Shown in pieces: positions 21,072-31,096 of a DNA stretch of 64,000 bases (position 1 is its first letter; every line of letters starts with the position of its first letter). A program made the translations under genes and the position numbers. The stretch is from the NCBI RefSeq assembly GCF_024448985.1, contig NZ_JAMOII010000006.1:1-64000 (forward strand), written 5' to 3'. Origin of the DNA: Stutzerimonas stutzeri. GTDB taxonomy: Bacteria > Pseudomonadota > Gammaproteobacteria > Pseudomonadales > Pseudomonadaceae. The notes beneath the pieces are model-generated. The model did no database searches. It saw only the letters and a list, made by a program, of their open reading frames with translations, and had not been told where the DNA came from.

Positions 21072-21205
21072 AACCATGCTCCTTTGCGCGAATAGATAAC
21101 TGAGAGTCGACACATTGGGCCCAGTTCCCGTTTTTACCGTAGAGGAACTGCCAGCCCTGCGTTCCTGAAGTGATGTGTAGGCAGCCTTCTTCGGCGACAG
21201 TTTTC
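21072..21205. other. promoter region of the DUF6152-like gene, outer flank of the arsenic island
   Basis: No gene. It carries the leftward promoter for the gene ending at 20634 and abuts the left 167-bp repeat. No target-site duplication could be matched with the far side of the island. Confidence 0.4.
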
Positions 21206-21372
21206 GGCCCAGAGTGTGTAAAAACGCTTCGTCAAAATTGAAGTGCGCGCGTCTACGTGAAATCTGAAATTTTTCGGCACCTCAGCAGATGTGGATTTCG
21301 CCCAGATGCGCGATTTCCAGTCCGGTTTTGAGTACCTGTCGCGCTCGAAAACGTTTTTACACAGCCTCGGCC
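21206..21372 (+). repeat. 167-bp MITE-like repeat, left copy
   Basis: The ends GGCCCAGAGTGTGTAAAAAC and GTTTTTACACAGCCTCGGCC are inverted repeats matching at 18 of 21 positions. The copy is identical, as far as I can read, to 30768-30934. It is too short for a transposase. The size and ends fit a MITE or an internally deleted insertion sequence. Confidence 0.85.
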
Positions 21373-21484
21373 AATAGCAGCCATTCACGTTTGGCTGCTT
21401 ACGCAACCCTTTGCAGGTATTACTGGCTGCCCTCTGGACTCACCACTAGCTACGGTTTCTTGTCATCTTTCGGGCGTGAGTGGC

Positions 21485-22570
21485 TCAGTTTTGCGCTACG
21501 GGTGCGCGAGCCTCTCCCGAGGCGCGAAGGCGGTGAAGCAAATCCGGCATTATGTATCCGGCATCTGGCCCTACGCCTCTGAGGGTTGCAGAAGCAAAGT
21601 TGCGTTGCTTAGGCAGGCCCACAAAGTACAAGCCGGGGACATGCACGGCTCGCCCGTCACGTTGCGTCACATGGCCTCGTTCGTCGATCACGGGCAGGCC
21701 TTCGAGGAATGGCAGGTTCGGACGAAAACCGGTGGCGAACACAATGCTATTGACGGCTTCATGCTGCCCATCGGCCCAAACAACACCTTTTGAAGTTACC
21801 TGAGTGAACATTGCGGCTTGTTTGAATAATCCGGCTTTCAGCGCCTTTCTGTAGGTGCCGTCGTCCAGTACAGGTGTGCTTTGGTCGTTCAGCCAGCGGG
21901 TTTTCTCCAGGCCTGTCCATTTCAGCCAGGTATGGAAATCTGCCCCCAATATCCGTTGTGGCACGAACCGAATCGCTTCTCGTGTGGCCAACGTAACGGT
22001 GGCCACTTTGGCTAAGTCGTAAGCGATCTGTACAGCGGAGTTCGCCGCGCCAATTACGACGATGCTTTGCCCACTGAAAGCCTCTGCATTCCGATAGTCG
22101 GCACTGTGAAGTCGAGTGCCGCTGAAGCTTTCGAGCCCAAGAATGCTTGGTATGTAGGGGCGACTAAAGGCTCCCGATGCCACTACCACCGCCCTCGCCC
22201 AAAAGCGTTGCCCGTCGGCGGCAGTTATTTGGAATCCTTCATCTTCCTGATCTACCCGTGTGACCTGAACGCCGTGGAGGATAGGTAGTTGGAAGAGGTA
22301 GGCGTACTGCTCTAGGTAACGCACCACTTCATCACGAGCGGGGTAGTGGTTTGGTGCTCCGGGGAACGGCATCCCCGGTAGAGCTGAGTAGGCTGCCGGC
22401 GAGAACAGTTCGAGGCTGTCGTAGTAGTTACGCCAGTTCCCACCAGGTTGCGATTGCTCATCGAGAATAATGAAGTTGAGCCCCTGCTGTTTCAGGTGCC
22501 AGCCGCTGGCCAACCCTGCTTGGCCAGCACCGATGACAACGACATCGAAAGGTTGGTCTTTTGTGTTCAT
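21485..22570 (-). CDS. arsO: ArsO-like flavin-dependent monooxygenase (left copy)
   Basis: FAD/NAD(P)H-dependent monooxygenase-like protein of 361 aa. The FAD-binding motif VIGAGQAGLASGWHL is at about 12-26, a second dinucleotide motif (VVIGAANSAVQIAY) is near 165-180, and the conserved ATGFRPN is near 290. Proteins of this kind are found in ars clusters and called ArsO; the reaction is not firmly established. It lies 36 bp downstream of arsR1 on the same strand, so the pair is an operon. I use the ATG at 22570; an ATG at 22588 is also in frame. A sequence resembling the arsR1 operator overlaps this start. Confidence 0.75.
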   Translation of the reverse strand: MNTKDQPFDVVVIGAGQAGLASGWHLKQQGLNFIILDEQSQPGGNWRNYYDSLELFSPAAYSALPGMPFPGAPNHYPARDEVVRYLEQYAYLFQLPILHGVQVTRVDQEDEGFQITAADGQRFWARAVVVASGAFSRPYIPSILGLESFSGTRLHSADYRNAEAFSGQSIVVIGAANSAVQIAYDLAKVATVTLATREAIRFVPQRILGADFHTWLKWTGLEKTRWLNDQSTPVLDDGTYRKALKAGLFKQAAMFTQVTSKGVVWADGQHEAVNSIVFATGFRPNLPFLEGLPVIDERGHVTQRDGRAVHVPGLYFVGLPKQRNFASATLRGVGPDAGYIMPDLLHRLRASGEARAPVAQN

Positions 22571-22606
22571 ATATGCGCACTCATGCACGTTATTGGATAA
22601 ATGAAA

Positions 22607-22954
22607 TCAGTCCTGGCTGCCTGGGCAGCAGAACGGGGCGATGCTTTTTGTGTGGAGGAGGATATTTTCCAGACGCTGGATAATGGCTAGGCCATCCACT
22701 TCGTAGAACATCTGCCGTCCAACCTTCGAGGCACGAACGATCCCGGCTTCAAGCAGTACCTGAAGATGACGTGAGACTACCGAGCGCTCCTGAGGCAGCT
22801 CAGCCGCAATCTCGGTGACATCTGCTCGGCCTAATTGCATAACGCGTTTCAACACGGCGACTCGTGGTGGCTCGCACAGGGCTTTGAAGAATGCACCATC
22901 AAGTGATTCGATGGCGGCCTCGATGGCTTGGGTTCGGGTCGGTGATGTAGTCAT
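22607..22954 (-). CDS. arsR: ArsR-family repressor with C-terminal Cys-Cys pair
   Basis: Winged-helix repressor of 115 aa; the recognition helix region is ERSVVSRHLQVLLEAGIV (about 56-73). The CVC motif of E. coli-type ArsR is absent. The only cysteines are Cys27 and the vicinal pair Cys109-Cys110 near the C-terminus (APFCCPGSQD), recalling ArsR proteins that bind As(III) at C-terminal cysteines. It leads a two-gene unit with arsO and has a palindrome just upstream, so autoregulation is likely. The inducer could be arsenite or an organoarsenical; sequence alone does not decide. Confidence 0.82.
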   Translation of the reverse strand: MTTSPTRTQAIEAAIESLDGAFFKALCEPPRVAVLKRVMQLGRADVTEIAAELPQERSVVSRHLQVLLEAGIVRASKVGRQMFYEVDGLAIIQRLENILLHTKSIAPFCCPGSQD

Positions 22955-22963
22955 GCGGCGACT

Positions 22964-22987
22964 ATATGTGCATCTGTGTGCACGTGT
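22964..22987. promoter_or_regulatory. candidate operator of arsR1
   Basis: GTGCATCTGTGTGCAC (22968-22983) is an inverted repeat (GTGCA / TGCAC) 14 bp upstream of the arsR1 ATG. A related sequence, ATATGCGCACTCATGCACGT, lies at 22570-22589 over the arsO start. Both are good ArsR-site candidates, by motif only. Confidence 0.5.
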
Positions 22988-23049
22988 AAAGCGCTGATAG
23001 GACGCTAGGCACCACCCCCTCCAGAGTAGAGAGCAGTGCCTTGTGCGGA

Positions 23050-23320
23050 TTACTTCTTAATTGCTTGCAGGTAGTCCTTCAGAGTCGACTCGTCGGCAGA
23101 CTTGACGGTCATGCCTTCAGGGCCAGTGCCGATGTCGGTGAACTGCTTAGCAGGCTCGCCTGTTTTTTTGAACTCTTCCAGCTCCTTGGAGCCTTCGCGG
23201 AATACCCACAGGCGACCATCTTCAACCTCGGTGACAAAGCCAGGTTTATCGTACTGGCTGGCCAAGGCGGCGGTGGCGAACAGGCTGGTCAACAGCATTG
23301 CAGTCAAAGTTAGTTTTCAT
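23050..23320 (-). pseudogene. small exported protein with a frameshift in its signal peptide
   Basis: The body encodes a small protein of about 65 mature residues (SQYDKPGFVTEVEDGRLW and onward to YLQAIKK). The ATG at 23320, which has a well-placed AGGA site, reads MKTNFDC and stops after about two dozen codons. Removing one A from the AAAA at 23314-23317 gives MKLTLTAMLLTSLFATAALA, an ideal Sec signal peptide in frame with the body. So there is a +1 insertion in a homopolymer. In-frame initiation at the TTG at 23307 would give a shortened signal (85 aa). Sequencing error, slippage or real inactivation are all possible. Function is unknown; it sits within the ars island. Confidence 0.72.
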
Positions 23321-23533
23321 CGCAAGGTTCCTGCTTGGGTTAGAGATGCGATAAAGCCTAAAGCTCTCCTGATGACGGAAAGATTACAAAATATGGATAT
23401 GCGATTAATCAGATGTTTCAGAGTGTTTCTCGCTCTAAGCGTCGACCTTCTTGCTGCCTTAAGGCAGAGGAGCTAGGCCCTTCAGGCATGTTTGCATGCG
23501 CTTCACGCAATGGGTTGCTATTTTCGCTTTACT

Positions 23534-23557
23534 GAATATTCGATAAAACGTATATTC
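23534..23557. promoter_or_regulatory. candidate ArsR operator for the main ars operon
   Basis: GAATAT, 12 bp, then ATATTC form a perfect inverted repeat 31 bp before the arsC1 start, in the most AT-rich part of the island. Position and form fit an ArsR/SmtB-type operator overlapping the promoter. Confidence 0.6.
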
Positions 23558-23587
23558 ACCAGACCATATTCGGTTCGAGATTTGGCA

Positions 23588-24001
23588 ATGGTTTACAAGA
23601 CCCGCGTACTGTTCGTTTGTGTGGCTAACGCTGCTCGTTCGCAGCTGGCTGAAGCGCTGCTGCGACACACTGATTCCGAACGTTTCGAGGCATACAGCGC
23701 CGGCACCGTGCCCGGCGAAGTCGATCCACGCACCCTGGATGCACTTGAGCATCTGGGTGTGAACACCGAGGGGCTGCATAGCAAGTCCATCGATGAGTTT
23801 GCCGGCGAGCGTTTCGAATACGTCATCACACTGTGCGATAAATCGTCGCTGGAGTGTCATGCTCTGCCCGGTGCTGGAGAGTTACTGGCGTGGAACTTCG
23901 AAGACCCAGTAACAAGCACCAAGCCTGACGCATTCCGCCACACCCTTCACGAGATACACGAGCGCATCAAGATGTTCGTGCTGGTGAAAACTAAACGTTG
24001 A
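23588..24001 (+). CDS. arsC: arsenate reductase, LMW-phosphatase type (ArsC1)
   Basis: Thioredoxin-coupled arsenate reductase with the low-molecular-weight phosphatase fold, 137 aa. The CX5R loop is Cys11-VANAA-Arg17, and the redox pair Cys83 and Cys90 (LCDKSSLEC) matches the three-cysteine relay of the Gram-positive-type enzyme. I chose the ATG at 23588 (MVYKTRVLFVC); an upstream in-frame start at 23492 would run through the operator palindrome. It is the first gene of the main operon and is followed 7 bp later by arsR2. Confidence 0.87.
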   Translation: MVYKTRVLFVCVANAARSQLAEALLRHTDSERFEAYSAGTVPGEVDPRTLDALEHLGVNTEGLHSKSIDEFAGERFEYVITLCDKSSLECHALPGAGELLAWNFEDPVTSTKPDAFRHTLHEIHERIKMFVLVKTKR

Positions 24002-24008
24002 GACCTTT

Positions 24009-24365
24009 ATGGCTGACCATCTGACCCCGACCACCGTATTCAAATGCTTGGCTGACGAGACCCGCGTTCGCCTGATGCTGCTCATCACCCGTGAGGATGA
24101 GTTGTGTGTCTGTGAGCTGACCTGCGCGCTCGATGAAAGTCAGCCGAAGGTATCCCGCCACCTGGCGCAGCTGCGCAACTGCGGACTGCTGGAAGATCGC
24201 CGGCAGGGACAGTGGGTCTATTACCGCCTGCACCCGAGCCTGCCGGACTGGGTGATTGCCATCCTGAAAACCACTCTAGATGCCAATCAGCACTGGCTCA
24301 GCCCAGATGCCAAACGCCTCGATGTAATGGGTGACCGCCCGCAGCGCCTTGCCGCCTGCTGCTGA
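24009..24365 (+). CDS. arsR: ArsR arsenite-responsive repressor (canonical)
   Basis: Winged-helix repressor of 118 aa. The As(III)-binding site in helix 3 is ELCVCELTC: Cys33, Cys35 and Cys39, with the CVC motif of classical ArsR. The recognition helix is SQPKVSRHLAQLRNCGLL (about 44-61). It lies inside the operon it presumably controls, between the two arsC genes, with 7-bp and 29-bp gaps. It most likely binds the palindrome at 23534-23557 and releases it on arsenite binding. Confidence 0.92.
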   Translation: MADHLTPTTVFKCLADETRVRLMLLITREDELCVCELTCALDESQPKVSRHLAQLRNCGLLEDRRQGQWVYYRLHPSLPDWVIAILKTTLDANQHWLSPDAKRLDVMGDRPQRLAACC

Positions 24366-24394
24366 GTTGCGCCCGGCCTTTACGAGATAGCCTC

Positions 24395-24865
24395 ATGAAA
24401 ATTTTATTCCTCTGCACCGCCAACAGCTGCCGCAGCATTCTTTGCGAAGCTGTGTTCAATCACTTGGCACCGGCGGGCATGAAAGCCTACAGCGCCGGCA
24501 GTCAGCCGAAAGGTGTCGTGCATCCGTTGAGCCTGAAAACGCTGGAAAACGCCAGCATCTCGACCGCAGGGCTCTCCAGCAAATCCAGCGATGTTCATGA
24601 GGGTCTAGCCCCTGACTACGTGATCACAGTCTGCGACAAGGCTGCCGGCGAAGCCTGCCCGGTGTTTTTCGGGCCCGCGACCAAGGCTCACTGGGGGCTG
24701 GCTGATCCGTCGGAATACCAGGGCAGTGCAGACGAGATCGAAGCCGCTTTTGATGCCACCTTGGAGCAGATCAGAACCCGCATCGAAGCCTTCCTGGCTT
24801 TACCGCTCAAGCAGATGGATGCCGAGCAACTCAAGGCCGAGTTGGCCTTGATCGGCACACTCTGA
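24395..24865 (+). CDS. arsC: arsenate reductase, LMW-phosphatase type (ArsC2)
   Basis: Second thioredoxin-type arsenate reductase, 156 aa. It has the phosphatase loop Cys7-TANSC-Arg13 and the distal pair Cys80 and Cys88 in [10 protein letters not shown], followed by the conserved HWGLADPS. It reduces As(V) to As(III) for export by Acr3. The two ArsC proteins are only distantly alike, so they probably arose separately and not by recent duplication. It is followed after 16 bp by acr3. Confidence 0.93.
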
Positions 24866-24881
24866 CATGGGAGGCATGACG

Positions 24882-25943
24882 ATGAGCAAAAGCCGTCTTT
24901 CATTTCTGGATCGCTACCTGACGGTCTGGATCTTTCTCGCCATGGCGATTGGTGTCAGCCTGGGCAGCCTATTCGAAGGCCTGCCGGTCTGGCTCAACAG
25001 TCTGTCGGTAGGTTCGACCAATATCCCGATTGCCATTGGCCTGATCGTGATGATGTACCCGCCACTGGCCAAGGTCAGGTATGAAGAGCTGCCCGAGGTA
25101 TTCAAGGACAAACGCATTCTCGCGCTGTCGCTGATCCAGAACTGGGTGATCGGCCCGGTACTGATGTTTGCGCTGGCAGTGATTTTCCTGCGTGATCAAC
25201 CTGAATACATGACCGGCCTGATTCTTATCGGCCTGGCACGCTGCATTGCTATGGTGCTGGTGTGGAACCAAATCGCAGGCGGCAACAACCAGTACGTCGC
25301 AGGCCTGGTCGCGTTCAACAGCATCTTCCAGATCCTGTTCTTCAGCGTGTATGCCTGGATCTTCCTTGGCCTGCTGCCGCCCTTGTTCGGCATACAGGGC
25401 AGCGTGATTGATGTGAGCTTTGTCAGCATCGCCGAGTCTGTGCTGATTTACCTCGGCATTCCGTTTCTGGCTGGTTTCCTGACGCGAAAGATCCTGATCA
25501 GCCGCAAAGGCGAAGAGTGGTTCAACCAGCGTTTTATCCCACGCATCAGCCCGCTGACACTGGTGGCGCTGCTGCTGACCATCGTAGCGATGTTCAGCCT
25601 CAAGGGCGAAATGGTGCTGCAACTGCCGCTGGATGTGTTGCGTATCGCCATCCCGCTGACTATCTACTTCGTGGTGATGTTCTTTATTAGCTTCTGGATG
25701 GGCAAGCTGTTGAAGGCAGATTATCCACGTACTACCGCACTGGCCTTTACCGCTGCCAGCAACAACTTTGAACTCGCAATTGCTGTGGCCATTGCCACTT
25801 TCGGTCTGGCTTCGCCTGTGGCCTTTGCCACGGTGATTGGCCCGCTGGTTGAAGTGCCGGTGCTGATCGCCTTGGTCGGTGTAGCCCTTTGGCTCAAACG
25901 CCGCTGGTTTGACCAGCCTCGCGCAGCACTCGCTCAGGAGTAG
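24882..25943 (+). CDS. acr3: arsenite efflux permease Acr3
   Basis: Inner-membrane As(III)/H+ antiporter of the ACR3 (bile/arsenite/riboflavin transporter) superfamily, 353 aa with ten predicted helices. The family signature with the essential cysteine is visible as [18 protein letters not shown] (Cys about 121), and the conserved [17 protein letters not shown] lies near 290. The ATG at 24882 follows GGGAGG; an earlier in-frame ATG at 24867 would overlap the arsC2 end more tightly and lacks a site. It is often labelled arsB in Pseudomonas but is not related to E. coli ArsB. Confidence 0.95.
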
Positions 25944-25947
25944 ACGT

Positions 25948-26664
25948 ATGTCTGAAGAACACATCCCCAATCTCGATGCCGAACTGGTCGATCTGCCCAC
26001 CCTCGACAAGCTCGGCAGCCCGCTTACCGTTACGCACAAGCCACGCATTCTGCTGCTCTACGGATCGACCCGCGCACGCTCGTTCAGCCGCTTGCTAACC
26101 GAGGAAGCCGCTCGCCTGCTGGAGCACTTCGGGGCCGAAACGCGGATCTTCAATCCATCTGGACTGCCTTTGCCGGACGATGCTCCGGACAACCATCCCA
26201 AGGTGCAGGAACTGCGTGAGTTGATGCAGTGGTCGGAAGGCCAGGTCTGGTGCTCGCCGGAGCGTCACGGCTCAATGACAGGAGTGTTCAAGGCGCAGAT
26301 CGACTGGGTTCCGCTGGCGATTGGCGCGGTACGCCCGACCCAGGGTAAGACCTTGGCGTTGATGCAGGTCTGTGGCGGCTCGCAGTCCTTCAACGTAGTC
26401 AACCAACTGCGTGTGCTTGGCCGCTGGATGCGCATGTTCACCATCCCCAACCAGTCCTCCGTACCGAAGGCCTACCTGGAGTTCGATGAGGCAGGCCGGA
26501 TGAAACCATCGGCTTTTTATGATCGCGTGGTGGACGTGATGGAGGAACTGGTGAAGTTCACCCTGCTGCTGCGTGAGCGCTCCGACTACCTGGTTGACCG
26601 CTATTCCGAGCGCAAGGAATCGGCGGAAGAACTCTCCAAACGCGTTAATCAACGTTCCATCTGA
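25948..26664 (+). CDS. arsH: ArsH organoarsenical oxidase (NADPH:FMN oxidoreductase)
   Basis: Flavodoxin-like NADPH-dependent FMN protein of 238 aa that oxidises trivalent methyl- and aryl-arsenicals to the less toxic pentavalent forms. The FMN phosphate loop [12 protein letters not shown] is at about 37-48, and the conserved [18 protein letters not shown] near 105-122 is diagnostic for ArsH. The ATG lies 5 bp after the acr3 stop with CAGGAG upstream, so the two are tightly coupled in expression. Confidence 0.95.
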
Positions 26665-26677
26665 AGGATTTTTGATC

Positions 26678-27184
26678 GTGCAACAACATCCGTATTCCGT
26701 GCTGACCTCCGAGCAGGTCAAGGGCCAACTGATCTTCACGCCGTGCCCTGGCACTAAAGACACCTCAGTCGCGGAGGCGCTGGACACTCTCAAGGAGGCC
26801 GGTACTTCAGCCTTGCTGACCTTGATGCCCACTCAAGAACTGACCCAGAACGAAGTCGAGAATCTGTCAGGGCAGTGCCAGCAGCGCGGCATCGAGTGGT
26901 TCCACCTCCCAGTGGAAGACGACCAGGCACCCGGCGAGCCTTTCCAGGCGGCCTGGGACGCCAATCGCGAGCAGATCAAGCAACTACTCACAGAAGGCAA
27001 GAACATCGCCATTCACTGCAAAGGCGGTTCGGGTCGTACCGGTCTGATTGCCGCGCAGCTGCTGATCGAATGCGGCGCCCCATTCCGCGATGCGGTCAGT
27101 GAAGTTCAGGCGCTGCGCCCCCGTGCGATTCAGCACCCGGCGCATATCAACTACATCAGCCAGTTCGACAGCGCCAAGTCTTAA
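26678..27184 (+). CDS. dual-specificity-type cysteine phosphatase of the ars operon
   Basis: A 168-aa protein with the HCX5R signature: His-Cys-KGGSG-Arg-Thr in AIHCKGGSGRTGLIAAQ (about 109-125), and an upstream Asp in PVEDDQAPG that could be the general acid. It resembles the CDKN3/dual-specificity phosphatase group. I chose the GTG at 26678, 9 nt after GAAGGA; a TTG at 26672 is too close to that site. It sits between arsH and gap with 13- and 35-bp gaps, so it is cotranscribed. Its substrate is unknown; tyrosine, a phosphosugar or an arsenate ester are all guesses. Confidence 0.8.
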   Translation: MQQHPYSVLTSEQVKGQLIFTPCPGTKDTSVAEALDTLKEAGTSALLTLMPTQELTQNEVENLSGQCQQRGIEWFHLPVEDDQAPGEPFQAAWDANREQIKQLLTEGKNIAIHCKGGSGRTGLIAAQLLIECGAPFRDAVSEVQALRPRAIQHPAHINYISQFDSAKS

Positions 27185-27219
27185 TTGCCCGCAGCTAGCC
27201 GCCCCGAGAGAACAAAAAC

Positions 27220-28224
27220 ATGAGCATCAAAGTAGGTATCAACGGTTTCGGTCGTATCGGTCGTCTCGCCCTGCGTGCGGCCTGGAGTTGGCCAGAGTTC
27301 GAGTTCGTGCAGATCAACGACCCGGCAGGCGACGCAGCGACTCACGCCCACCTGATCAACTTCGATTCGGTGCATGGCCGCTGGAACAACGAAGCTAGCG
27401 CCGAGGGTGAGCATGTCGTGATCGGCGGCAAGCGCATCAAGGTCACCGCCAACAAGGCGATTGCTGAAACCGATTGGTCGGGCTGCGATCTGGTCATTGA
27501 AGCCAGTGGCAAGATGAAGACCGTCGCCGTGCTTCAGGCCTACCTGGATCAGGGCGTGAAGCGAGTGGTGGTCTGCGCACCGGTCAAGGAGAAAGGTGCG
27601 CTGAACGTGGTCATGGGCGTCAACCAGCACCTGTTCGATCCCGCGCAGCACCGCATCGTCACCGCTGCGTCCTGTACCACCAACTGCCTGGCCCCAGTGG
27701 TCAAGGTGATCCATGAGAACCTGGGCATTCGCCATGGTTCGATCACCACGATTCACGACCTGACCAATACCCAGAGCATCCTTGATCAGCCACACAAGGA
27801 TCTGCGCCGCGCCCGTGCCTCGGGTATGAGCCTGATTCCGACGACCACGGGTTCGGCCACCGCAATTGCCGAGATTTTTCCCGAGCTGCGCGGCAAGTTG
27901 AATGGTCATGCCGTACGCGTGCCGCTGGCTAATGCCTCGCTGACCGACTGCGTATTCGAAGTCGAGCGTGCCACTTCGGCGGATGAGGTCAATGCACTGC
28001 TCAAAGCTGCCGCCGAAGGGCCGTTGAAGAGCATCCTCGGCTACGAAGAGCGTCCCCTGGTCTCCATCGATTACCGCACCGACCCGCGCTCCTCGATCAT
28101 CGATGCTCTGTCGACCATGGTGGTGAATGAAACCCAGGTGAAGATCTACGCCTGGTACGACAACGAGTGGGGATACGCCAACCGTGCTGTCGAGTTGGCC
28201 AAACTGGTCGGCTTGGCCATTTAA
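27220..28224 (+). CDS. gap: ars-operon glyceraldehyde-3-phosphate dehydrogenase
   Basis: GAPDH paralogue of 334 aa. The NAD-binding start [15 protein letters not shown] and the active-site SCTTNC with nucleophile Cys152 are intact, as is His in [10 protein letters not shown]. Alone it would be taken for a glycolytic enzyme, but its place directly before arsJ identifies the arsenate-linked form: it uses arsenate in place of phosphate to make unstable 1-arseno-3-phosphoglycerate, which ArsJ exports (the route described in P. aeruginosa). ArsJ begins 12 bp downstream. Confidence 0.93.
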
Positions 28225-28236
28225 CAGGGAGCGATC

Positions 28237-29457
28237 ATGAAGGCGTTGTCAGCTCTTTCCCCGGAAGTGCGCCAGTACCTGCTGGTCACCGGCAATTACT
28301 GGGCCTTTACCCTCACCGATGGCGCGTTGCGCATGTTGGTGGTGCTGCACTTCCACACGCTGGGCTACACGCCTCTGCAAATCGCTGCGCTGTTCCTGTT
28401 CTACGAGATCTTCGGTGTTATCACCAACTTGGTCGGCGGCTATCTCGGAGCACGCCTGGGCCTGAATCGCACCATGAACATTGGCTTGGGCCTACAGGTG
28501 GCGGCCTTGCTGATGCTGACGGTGCCAGCCGCCTGGCTGACCATCCCCTGGGTGATGGGGGCTCAGGCCATGTCGGGTATCGCCAAAGACCTCAATAAGA
28601 TGAGCGCTAAGAGTTCGATCAAGCTGTTGGTGCCTGACAACCAGCAAGGCACGCTCTACAAGTGGGTGGCGATCCTCACTGGCTCAAAGAATGCGCTGAA
28701 AGGGGTTGGCTTCTTTCTCGGCGGTGCGTTGCTGGCATTGATGGGGTTCACGGGCGCAGTGCTGGCGATGGCCGCCGTACTGGCCCTGATCTGGATAGCC
28801 AGCCTGTTCCTGCTGAAGAAAGACCTGGGCAAGGCCAAAGCCAAGCCTAAGTTTCGCGACATCCTCTCCAAGAGCCGGGCGATTAACATTCTCTCGGCGG
28901 CCCGACTATTCCTCTTCGGGGCCCGTGATGTGTGGTTCGTGGTGGCCTTGCCGGTCTACCTGAGCACCGTGTTTGGCTGGGACTTCTGGCTGGTAGGCGG
29001 CTTCCTGGCGGCTTGGGTCATCGGCTACGGCATCGTGCAGTCGTTCGCCCCGAACATCACTGGGAAAAAGCGCGGTCACGTCCCTGATGGACGAGCAGCC
29101 TTCATTTGGGCGGCGCTGCTGGCTGGACTGCCTGCGGCGATTGCCCTCGGCCTTTCGGCGGGCTGGTCGCCTCAGGTTGTGCTGCTGGGTGGGCTGATGG
29201 TGTTTGGCGCACTGTTCGCGGTGAACTCATCGCTACACAGCTACCTGATCGTTTCCTACGCCAAGGAAGACGGTGTGTCGCTGGACGTGGGGTTCTACTA
29301 CATGTCCAACGCCTTGGGCCGTTTACTCGGCACAGTGTTGTCGGGCTGGATTTATCAGAACTACGGACTGGAGGCTTGCTTGTGGGTATCCACGGCATTC
29401 GTTCTGTTGGCCGCTCTGATTTCTATCGCCTTACCCAGGCACGCTGAGGCGATATGA
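28237..29457 (+). CDS. arsJ: ArsJ organoarsenical (1-arseno-3-phosphoglycerate) exporter
   Basis: Major-facilitator permease of 406 aa with twelve predicted helices, beginning MKALSALSPEVRQYLLVTGNYW. It is the last gene of the main operon. ArsJ exports 1-arseno-3-phosphoglycerate made by the adjacent GAPDH; outside the cell this breaks down to arsenate, so the pair gives arsenate resistance without reduction. Family and pairing are recognised from sequence and synteny. A weak hairpin (AGCCCGT / ACGGGCT, 29457-29477) follows without a T run. Confidence 0.93.
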   Translation: MKALSALSPEVRQYLLVTGNYWAFTLTDGALRMLVVLHFHTLGYTPLQIAALFLFYEIFGVITNLVGGYLGARLGLNRTMNIGLGLQVAALLMLTVPAAWLTIPWVMGAQAMSGIAKDLNKMSAKSSIKLLVPDNQQGTLYKWVAILTGSKNALKGVGFFLGGALLALMGFTGAVLAMAAVLALIWIASLFLLKKDLGKAKAKPKFRDILSKSRAINILSAARLFLFGARDVWFVVALPVYLSTVFGWDFWLVGGFLAAWVIGYGIVQSFAPNITGKKRGHVPDGRAAFIWAALLAGLPAAIALGLSAGWSPQVVLLGGLMVFGALFAVNSSLHSYLIVSYAKEDGVSLDVGFYYMSNALGRLLGTVLSGWIYQNYGLEACLWVSTAFVLLAALISIALPRHAEAI

Positions 29458-29566
29458 GCCCGTCAACATCACGGGCTGCTGTATGTGGAGAGGCGCCTGT
29501 GGAAGCCATCAAGCAAGGCTCTCCTGAGCGGTTAATGGTGTATACGAAGGTAGGCTTCGATTCGAC

Positions 29567-30643
29567 TCAGGCACATTGACAGCCGAGCAAGGCATCAATC
29601 TCGCTGACCGTGCTTCGAGCTGTACGAGTGACGCCGATCAGTGTGGCTGAAGCTGCGCCTGTCCATTCGCCATAGCCAACCAGCCAAAGCCTGGGCTCTT
29701 GGGTCGAGTGAGTGCCGGATATGTCAACACGACCCTCCGTGTTGAGTACGCCCAGAGTAGACAAGTGCTCTAAGGCGGGCCTGAAGCCGGTACACCAGAT
29801 CACCGCGTCCACGACAGATTCTGAGCCATCATCCCAGATGACTCCGTTGCGAGTGAAGCGCTCGAAAGGGCGCACAGACTTGAGCACACCGCGCTCGCGA
29901 GCCTCAACAACGGGCGGCACCATCACAATGTCGCCGAGCCCACCGACCGGCTGATCAATGGTGTGGCCTTCCAGTTGTGCTTTCCAGCGCTCTGTCGCGC
30001 GCTCGAACAATACCTTTCCATCTACATCGTCCGGCAAGAACAACGGCTCAACAGGCGTCACCCAGGTCGTGTCTGCGACCTTGGACACCTCGGCAAATAT
30101 CTGAGCACCGGAGTTGCCGCCACCTACCACCAATACTCTCTTGCCGGCGAATGGTTGGGCTTCGACGTAATGAGCGGAGTGCAGTTGCTGGCCTGCGAAT
30201 AGCTCTACATCCGGGTAGCTTGGGATGAAAGGATTGCTCCAAGTGCCAGTTGCACTGACTACTGCCTTCGTATCCCAGTGCTCGTCGCCAGACCATACCC
30301 GTAACCCTGACTCTATGCGTTCCACAGATGTCACGCGAACAGGCCGCACAACCGGGAATTGGTAGCGCTGTTCATACTGGTTGAGGTAGTCGATTACATG
30401 GTTGCGACTGGGATAACCATCCTGAACAGGCGGCATCATCCAACCAGGGATTGAACTCCAAGTGGCTGGCGAGAACAGACGCAGCGAGTTCCAGCCATGC
30501 CGCCACGCGCCACCAGATTCCTCTTCCGCATCGAGGAGCACGAATGAGCATTTGGTTCGACGCAGAAAGTAGGCCACCGCCAAGGCAGACTGCCCACCTC
30601 CGATGATGACGACATCTAGTTTTGGCGTTTGCGCGATATCCAT
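29567..30643 (-). CDS. arsO: ArsO-like flavin-dependent monooxygenase (right copy)
   Basis: FAD/NAD(P)H monooxygenase-like protein of 358 aa, convergent with arsJ. The FAD motif [17 protein letters not shown] lies near residue 10, the NADP-type motif [16 protein letters not shown] near 160, and CTGFRP near 290. It shares the order of motifs with the left ArsO-like protein but is clearly divergent (different substrate-facing residues, insertion [11 protein letters not shown]). The ATG at 30643 gives MDIAQTPKL; upstream in-frame starts would only add a non-conserved leader. It is the last gene before the right repeat and has its own promoter. Confidence 0.75.
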
Positions 30644-30767
30644 GCTTCGGGCCTTCCATAATGCAGAACAGGAAGTATATCGGCACGGCTCCACGTTCAA
30701 ATGATTTGGCTCAAGAGTGGACGTGAATCGCCCCAGCCTTCCTAGACGCTTGCGGCCGCCTGCTTTT
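30644..30767. other. promoter region of the right arsO-like gene
   Basis: No gene; must contain the leftward promoter. It abuts the right 167-bp repeat. Confidence 0.4.
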
Positions 30768-30934
30768 GGCCCAGAGTGTGTAAAAACGCTTCGTCAAAAT
30801 TGAAGTGCGCGCGTCTACGTGAAATCTGAAATTTTTCGGCACCTCAGCAGATGTGGATTTCGCCCAGATGCGCGATTTCCAGTCCGGTTTTGAGTACCTG
30901 TCGCGCTCGAAAACGTTTTTACACAGCCTCGGCC
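30768..30934 (+). repeat. 167-bp MITE-like repeat, right copy
   Basis: Identical to 21206-21372 by eye and in the same orientation. The flanking bases of the two copies differ (TTTTC and AATAG on the left copy, CTTTT and GAAAT on the right), and no direct target duplication is evident. Confidence 0.85.
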
Positions 30935-31096
30935 GAAATCAGCCCTTCATGCGGTGGTGCGCCCGGAGCAGCAATTGGTGGGCTCTCGGTCGGTATTCTA
31001 GGCGTCGCACTACAGTCCGGCAGTGCAGCACATCAGTCTCAGACGACTGACTCTTCGCCCACTGGAACCCACTGCGCCACACGGCGTCCATGAGAA
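30935..31096. other. short gap between the island and the decarboxylase-like gene
   Basis: No gene or strong motif. It should contain the promoter of the gene at 31097. Confidence 0.4.

Follow-up and report, generated by a model that had tools for sequence, protein, structure and literature searches.

An arsenic gene block of Stutzerimonas stutzeri between two IS1182-type miniature elements: a probable cassette with GGCC-centred palindromic ends

Background

Pairs of identical, short and non-coding inverted-repeat elements around resistance cargo are described for Acinetobacter, where miniature inverted-repeat transposable elements (MITEs) enclose integrons (NFM2) or a mer region (MITE-297; PMC6382973). 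A similar arrangement occurs in a stretch of 64,000 nt of Stutzerimonas stutzeri DNA (positions 1 to 64,000 of contig NZ_JAMOII010000006.1, assembly GCF_024448985.1; hereafter the window), in which a block of arsenic (ars) genes lies between two identical elements of 167 nt; in contrast to the Acinetobacter structures, the border of this block also occurs without a MITE. We consider the following reading the best supported, with a probability of about 0.63: the ars block forms a cassette that terminates on both sides in a palindromic core site, the MITEs most likely entered these sites separately, and a small tyrosine recombinase likely drove the exchange.

The insertion sequence (IS) from which the 167-nt element appears to derive has its closest described counterpart in IS1272 and relatives of the IS1182 family. 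IS1272, which is placed in this family, is reported to target inverted-repeat structures, and the same article cites a statement that palindromes are targeted by some members of the family (PMC5678879). The transposase family and the targeting of palindromes are therefore common to both; IS1272 is, however, reported there to replace the stem-loop, whereas the insertions in our material leave both arms of the palindrome in place and duplicate 4 bp. The TIMEs (Tn3-derived inverted-repeat miniature elements) of Pseudomonas are likewise miniature and non-autonomous and are reported to build up mosaic transposons, but they are Tn3-derived, as the title of the article states (PMC4133298), while the elements described here have IS1182-type ends.

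Integrons resemble the present system in the combination of a tyrosine recombinase, palindromic sites and gene cassettes, in places with several joints in a row (as in loci L111 and L113). Units bounded by GGCC are known here from genome comparison; that their sites recombine, as those of integron cassettes do, is our proposal. The differences are considerable: the recombinase has only 206 aa and, with 24.3 bits where the integron-integrase model requires 265, falls short of an IntI assignment; the core is centred on GGCC; and the recombinase gene is itself bounded like a cassette. A comparison of the core by eye with the RYYYAAC/GTTRRRY boxes of attC sites revealed no match, and no attC search was made. 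Small recombinases of the FimB/FimE type and shufflons are similar in their small size and in the inversion of a segment between short inverted sites, but we saw no fimbrial or pilin switch, and the exchanged blocks here are unrelated gene blocks. A literature search of partial coverage, with most subscription journals outside it, returned no description of the 167-nt repeat, of this core site or of the recombinase element.

Core sites at the ends of the ars block

The window contains one long direct-repeat family (21195-21387 and 30757-30949; 96% identity over 193 nt, start-to-start spacing 9562). Its two copies are 100% identical across a core of 167 nt and have the same orientation, as an earlier reading of this DNA, made from the sequence only, had reported. 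If the MITE is taken out, the target at each end is a palindromic core of roughly GNCNGCNNNN-GGCC-NNNNGCNGNC. Insertion of the IS or the MITE into such a core leaves 4 bp repeated on both sides, almost always GGCC, at the palindrome centre. The features of both ends are:

21206..21372, + strand: MITE copy 1, 167 nt counting the GGCC at each end
30768..30934, + strand: MITE copy 2, with the sequence and orientation of copy 1
21196..21205, + strand: outer arm of the left core site, B type, GACAGTTTTC, adjoining the GGCC at 21206-21209
21373..21382, + strand: inner arm of the left core site, A' type, AATAGCAGCC, the first bases of the ars cassette; homology with genome G049 begins at the preceding GGCC
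30758..30767, + strand: inner arm of the right core site, A type, GCCTGCTTTT, the last bases of the ars cassette
30935..30944, + strand: outer arm of the right core site, B' type, GAAATCAGCC; a similar sequence follows GGCC in G041 and G024, which have no MITE at this place

We called a GGCC core-like if one arm was perfect at four positions and the other had at most one mismatch. This applies to 33 of the 43 distinct MITE sites versus 49 of 5433 GGCC in the large loci (Fisher P 6e-55), and within the window to 1 of 554. Two MITE matches with incomplete ends and matches too near the locus ends are left out of this count, and sites were merged when both 10-nt flanks were equal, which joined a few places (e.g., L165:4879 with L037).

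Many cores form a double palindrome of about 62 bp, arranged as A-GGCC-B'-loop-B-GGCC-A', and a covariance model of this structure finds it in 48 of 56 genomes of the genus, at low copy. The distal halves of the core sites in the window look decayed. Strict palindrome patterns yielded 0 and 3 matches in the window, and one strict pattern had a single match in the whole genome from which the window comes (its own genome). A position-weight scan did not separate the window sites from shuffled sequences, in part owing to the MITE that interrupts each of them. In L113 and L111, three or four joints, some of them with a MITE, follow one another with one to three genes between them; these rows resemble a short cassette array, and L113 adjoins genes that appear TniQ/TniB-like by eye.

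Block borders in other genomes

Comparison with other genomes indicates that the block borders are core sites and that different modules occupy one and the same locus. Genomes G041 and G024 share the left flank with the window up to 21193 and 21209, respectively, and the right flank from 30931. Between these flanks both carry another module of about 6 kb, with genes that by eye encode a MocR-like regulator and thioredoxin-like, DsbD-like and quinone-oxidoreductase-like proteins, and no MITE. Neither genome thus has the repeat at this locus, which speaks against the composite unit of the sequence-only reading. The reverse case is found in G049, which matches window positions 21367-23207 at 99.7%; the match begins at the GGCC, without a MITE, and the left part of the ars block is joined there to a different outer arm and a gene that appears HsdR-like by eye, while the DNA outside differs.

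A unit of 725 bp with a DUF1508 gene displays GGCC at both ends in G023, in S. chloritidismutans AW-1 (which matches G005), in S. stutzeri 95A6 and in a Pseudomonas metagenome-assembled genome. The DNA to the left of this unit differs among these genomes; to the right, G023 and 95A6 have a recombinase unit (see below), whereas AW-1 and the metagenome-assembled genome continue with other DNA. In P. peli the DUF1508 unit is located at three contig ends (L180, L181, L182) with 100% protein identity; in two of these copies one border has DNA beyond it, and in the third there is none on that side. This suggests that the P. peli cassette is mobile and present in several copies, at which the assembly breaks off. 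Genomes G048 and G023 are 99.8% identical up to a joint, the interior of which is inverted and beyond which the DNA differs, and a P. fluorescens plasmid and G329 have 6.2 kb in common at 99.7%, starting within one such joint. Because GGCC borders occur without a MITE in G041 and G024, in G049 and at the DUF1508 unit, MITEs are not needed for borders of this kind.

The change of neighbours is likewise visible in numbers. Among half-flanks seen in at least two loci (distinct 90-mers, 93 core and 7510 control), 12 of 13 core half-flanks have at least two partners, compared with 269 of 1224 for the control GGCC of these loci, whose arms are poor; the loci had been found by searches with the MITE, the palindrome, flanks, cassettes or the recombinase, which biases the sample and has to be held against our reading, so that we regard this result as supportive rather than as drawn from an unbiased sample.

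A candidate tyrosine recombinase

The recombinase unit has about 745 bp, adjoins the DUF1508 unit in G023, and its complete copies read GGCC-GGTTAGCGAC...GTCGCTAACC-GGCC. It encodes a tyrosine recombinase of 206 aa (PF00589, 2.3e-19). The catalytic residues R, K, H-R, H and Y are present by eye. The protein clearly misses the cut-offs of the models for XerC, XerD and integron integrases and scores 29.1 bits against the model for tyrosine-type DNA invertases (cut-off 222); its relatives among solved structures are XerD/XerC-like with E about 1e-5. Simple tyrosine recombinases usually possess a core-binding and a catalytic domain (PMC8138268). With 206 aa the protein would be too short for both and may consist of the catalytic domain only.

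GGCC is present at the upstream border of the unit in 14 of 16 distinct contexts that were kept, and at the downstream border in all 14 of these contexts that include the downstream end. Matches to the recombinase at E 1e-30 or better are found in 34 of the 56 genus genomes, 25 of them with E < 1e-80 and the others with fragments only, and they occur in 32 of the 48 genomes that have the palindrome versus 2 of the 8 that lack it. Among the palindromes listed, 9 of 35 recombinase matches (E < 1e-80) lie within 10 kb of one, where 0.45 would be expected if three palindromes per 4.7 Mb are assumed. Relatives of the recombinase are present in 401 plasmid records.

Single loci display further arrangements. 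On a Methylomonas koyamae plasmid (L276), the recombinase gene is followed at a distance of about 75 nt by GACCGCTTTT-GGCC, the A half of a core. A recombinase copy on a Pseudomonas plasmid (L273) lies between GGTC and GACC, which would fit a core that can differ from GGCC and a unit that can flip. In G397 (L170, 5947-6772) the core site that immediately follows the recombinase gene contains a MITE.

The 167-nt element as a MITE of an IS1182-family IS

The terminal inverted repeats of the element, GGCCCAGAGTGTGTAAAAACG and GGCCGAGGCTGTGTAAAAACG, are identical at 18 of 21 positions, in agreement with the imperfect 21-bp repeats noted earlier. The own genome contains the 167-nt repeat at five places with 100% identity and at one more with 89%; the repeat pair is therefore not a chance one. 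A 1.3-kb element on another contig of this genome (C29) matches the left end of the repeat at both of its ends (28 and 36 nt, 92-93%, including a few flanking bases) and encodes a truncated IS1182-family transposase (196.9 bits, cut-off 270). Longer relatives in the genus have 1655-1669 bp, one of them with a transposase of 476 aa that reaches 491.5 bits against NF033551 (IS1182 family, cut-off 270). The element is short (167 nt), lacks a transposase gene, has its ends in common with an autonomous IS and is flanked by a target duplication, as is characteristic of MITEs. Since its ends are the same as those of an IS1182-family IS, truncated in the own genome and of full length in the genus, we interpret it as a MITE of this IS. 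It would thus add to an already known kind of element, and an IS1182 transposase would move it. The sequence-only reading had left the choice between a MITE and a deleted insertion sequence, and this is supported.

The outermost GGCC on either side of the repeat is most likely duplicated target and not part of the element. The flanks of ten IS spans of 1655-1669 bp (out of 15 spans listed) are GGCC on both sides in eight cases, GGCC/AGCC in one and GTTC/GTTC in one (L053). Three of the other five spans likewise have GGCC on both sides, namely L007 (truncated), L162 (made up of two inverted MITEs) and L167, and the remaining two, L071 and L072, have other repeats as flanks. A single MITE site (L143) is flanked by GGTC/GGTC, and together with the GTTC/GTTC case this suggests that the 4 bp belong to the target. 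L071 and L072 are more distant IS1182-like spans that by eye lie in terminator-like hairpin loops with repeats of 4-5 bp.

The repeat is present in 22 of the 56 genus genomes and in 79 of 398 genomes of the family Pseudomonadaceae, which were drawn from a larger group and of which the top two candidates per genome were scored. That the MITE also occurs elsewhere in the genome and the family speaks against a composite unit. One orthologous place holds the MITE in ten genus genomes (nine at 100%, one at 99%), and in L108, the one annotated case, it adjoins an OLD-nuclease/UvrD-helicase pair; the identity of these ten copies reflects shared ancestry and not ten insertions. A search of a phage collection with the MITE gave no match, and five plasmid records contain it.

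Close pairs of MITEs

Two scored MITE copies are present in 23 family genomes and lie less than 10 kb apart in seven of these (6/22 without the own genome), an excess with P about 1e-12 versus random placement. The cargo between close pairs comprises the ars block of the window, a Gabija system in G033 and other genes. In the own genome, two inverted copies (L010, contig C10, 8557-12750) bracket a further Gabija system (GajA and GajB by PADLOC, E < 1e-230). This pair adjoins genes that appear umuC-like by eye, and a third MITE copy is found at 2207. The pair in G033 (L112, 7369-15357) has direct orientation and encloses a different Gabija system together with an IS66-like transposase gene (by eye).

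If the C10 pair is added to the seven, there are eight close pairs, and each of their 16 MITE copies lies between two core arms; in two copies the GGCC of one end is imperfect. The arm order in the window, C10 and G033 pairs is B|GGCC[MITE]GGCC|A'-cargo-A|GGCC[MITE]GGCC|B'; in other close pairs the arm types vary. Two separate insertions would explain this pattern simply, and the clustering of MITEs would follow if the targets themselves bracket cargo. A target B|GGCC|B' is possible for the outer arms of the window, as arms of these types also flank single MITE copies (L172, L176).

Weighing the explanations

In the reading that we favour, the ars block would be a gene cassette ending in palindromic core sites, and blocks in this bacterial family would be exchanged at the GGCC of these sites; the junctions are taken from comparison, and the enzyme is our proposal. 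The 206-aa recombinase, carried on its element of about 745 bp, likely joins cores by a crossover within GGCC. Cassettes may pass through a circular form, and a past exchange at the ars locus may have used this recombinase route. The IS1182-family IS and its MITE target palindrome centres, duplicating 4 bp, usually GGCC, and the two MITEs most likely entered the left and the right core separately and decorate the block borders.

Several observations speak against this interpretation. Homology with G041 on the left stops 12 nt short of the GGCC, the right end of the G049 homology (window 23207) has no core site, and in G024 a neighbouring segment of 1.07 kb is inverted with a GGCC core at only one of its ends; for these reasons not every breakpoint is a core. 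The core criterion fails for 10 of the 43 distinct MITE insertions, and a part of these 43 are orthologous copies and not independent events. Both window sites are core-like yet imperfect, with one mismatch each in the outer arm, and the covariance model of the palindrome scores neither of them. The arm pattern of the MITE pairs would be the same after two separate insertions as after a composite hop that started from copies lying in cores; it is the MITE-free borders that speak against the MITE as vehicle. No GGCC-bounded recombinase unit was found in five plasmids from outside the Pseudomonadaceae (Paraburkholderia, Thauera, Methylomonas, Cupriavidus, Acidovorax). The evidence for recombination at the junctions is comparative. 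Finally, a search of the own genome for the recombinase at E 1e-30 returned 0 matches, and for this reason the block is probably not moved by site-specific recombination there at present.

The two identical copies in direct orientation suggest a composite transposon, in which two MITEs moved the ars block as a unit with an IS1182-type transposase acting in trans. This is close to the composite mobile unit proposed by the sequence-only reading, of which the bracketing of cargo by two copies stands, as do the frequent close pairs, while the role of the repeats as its borders does not agree with the MITE-free borders in G049, G041 and G024. The abundance of close pairs far beyond chance and the Gabija systems enclosed by the C10 and G033 pairs point in the same direction, in the G383 pair (L162), as in the G344 pair (L164), the two outer arms could together make up one core, and the MITE-flanked integrons of Acinetobacter (PMC6382973) offer a precedent. 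We nevertheless regard a composite transposon as unlikely, as the ars block in G049 has its left end at the same GGCC without a MITE, other joints have GGCC-exact block borders and no MITE, and the clustering of target palindromes accounts for the clustering of MITEs as well; moreover, a MITE-ars-MITE unit at a second location was not found in the 398 family genomes, queried with the MITE and the left part of the ars block and with the top two candidates scored per genome.

It is somewhat less likely still that the palindromes are ordinary repeats of the repetitive extragenic palindromic (REP) type or terminators, and that borders coincide with them through tolerated intergenic insertions, with no dedicated recombinase. 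Their genus-wide occurrence at low copy, the terminator-like loops (by eye) around L071 and L072 and the presence of joints in the own genome, which has no recombinase match, would agree with such an origin; against it stand the exact GGCC borders on both sides of the 725-bp unit, the inverted joint interior in G048 versus G023, the partner switching of core half-flanks and the similarly bordered recombinase element. Least probable of all is a swap of the ars block into the locus by homologous recombination between a resident and an incoming MITE. The five exact copies in the genome provide 167 nt of homology, and the draft genomes are compatible with such an event; against it, G041 and G024 have the same flanks and no MITE there, the right-flank junction is situated at the GGCC itself, and the same pattern is found at MITE-free joints. 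Homologous recombination between the two MITE copies of the window could possibly delete 9.56 kb.

The arsenic genes

NCBIfam and Pfam profiles assign the cargo to an arsenic module with ten named genes:

21485..22588, - strand: ArsO-like flavin monooxygenase, at 311.7 bits short of the ArsO cut-off (425)
22607..22954, - strand: ArsR/SmtB-family regulator (profile match)
24009..24365, + strand: ArsR regulator (profile match)
24395..24865, + strand: ArsC-like arsenate reductase, below the curated cut-off
24867..25943, + strand: ACR3 arsenite efflux transporter (profile match)
25909..26664, + strand: ArsH (profile match)
26573..27184, + strand: dual-specificity-phosphatase-like protein (profile match)
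27220..28224, + strand: ArsJ-associated glyceraldehyde-3-phosphate dehydrogenase (profile match)
28237..29457, + strand: ArsJ, organoarsenical efflux (profile match)
29567..30700, - strand: ArsO flavin monooxygenase (profile match)

The open reading frame at 23459-23860 matched nothing in the profile scan. No transposase was found among the eleven open reading frames scanned between the copies (smaller overlapping ones at about 23.0-24.0 kb lay outside the scan), and to this extent the earlier remark that the block lacks a transposase holds. Parts of the ars block are present in 50 plasmid records, none of which contains at least 80% of it.

Implications

More broadly, and only tentatively, the Pseudomonadaceae may possess a so far unrecognised, integron-like cassette system in which a mobile recombinase element and GGCC cores would allow cassettes with one or many genes (ars, Gabija, DUF1508 and others) to be integrated, inverted and swapped, with IS1182-type IS and MITEs as parasites of the sites. 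If the recombinase acts on the cores, some of the exchange of blocks for defence and metal resistance in this family would gain a defined enzyme and a defined site outside the classical integrons. The same premise would explain why MITEs bracket blocks without being their vehicle, and the core motif offers a direct means to predict block borders in draft genomes.

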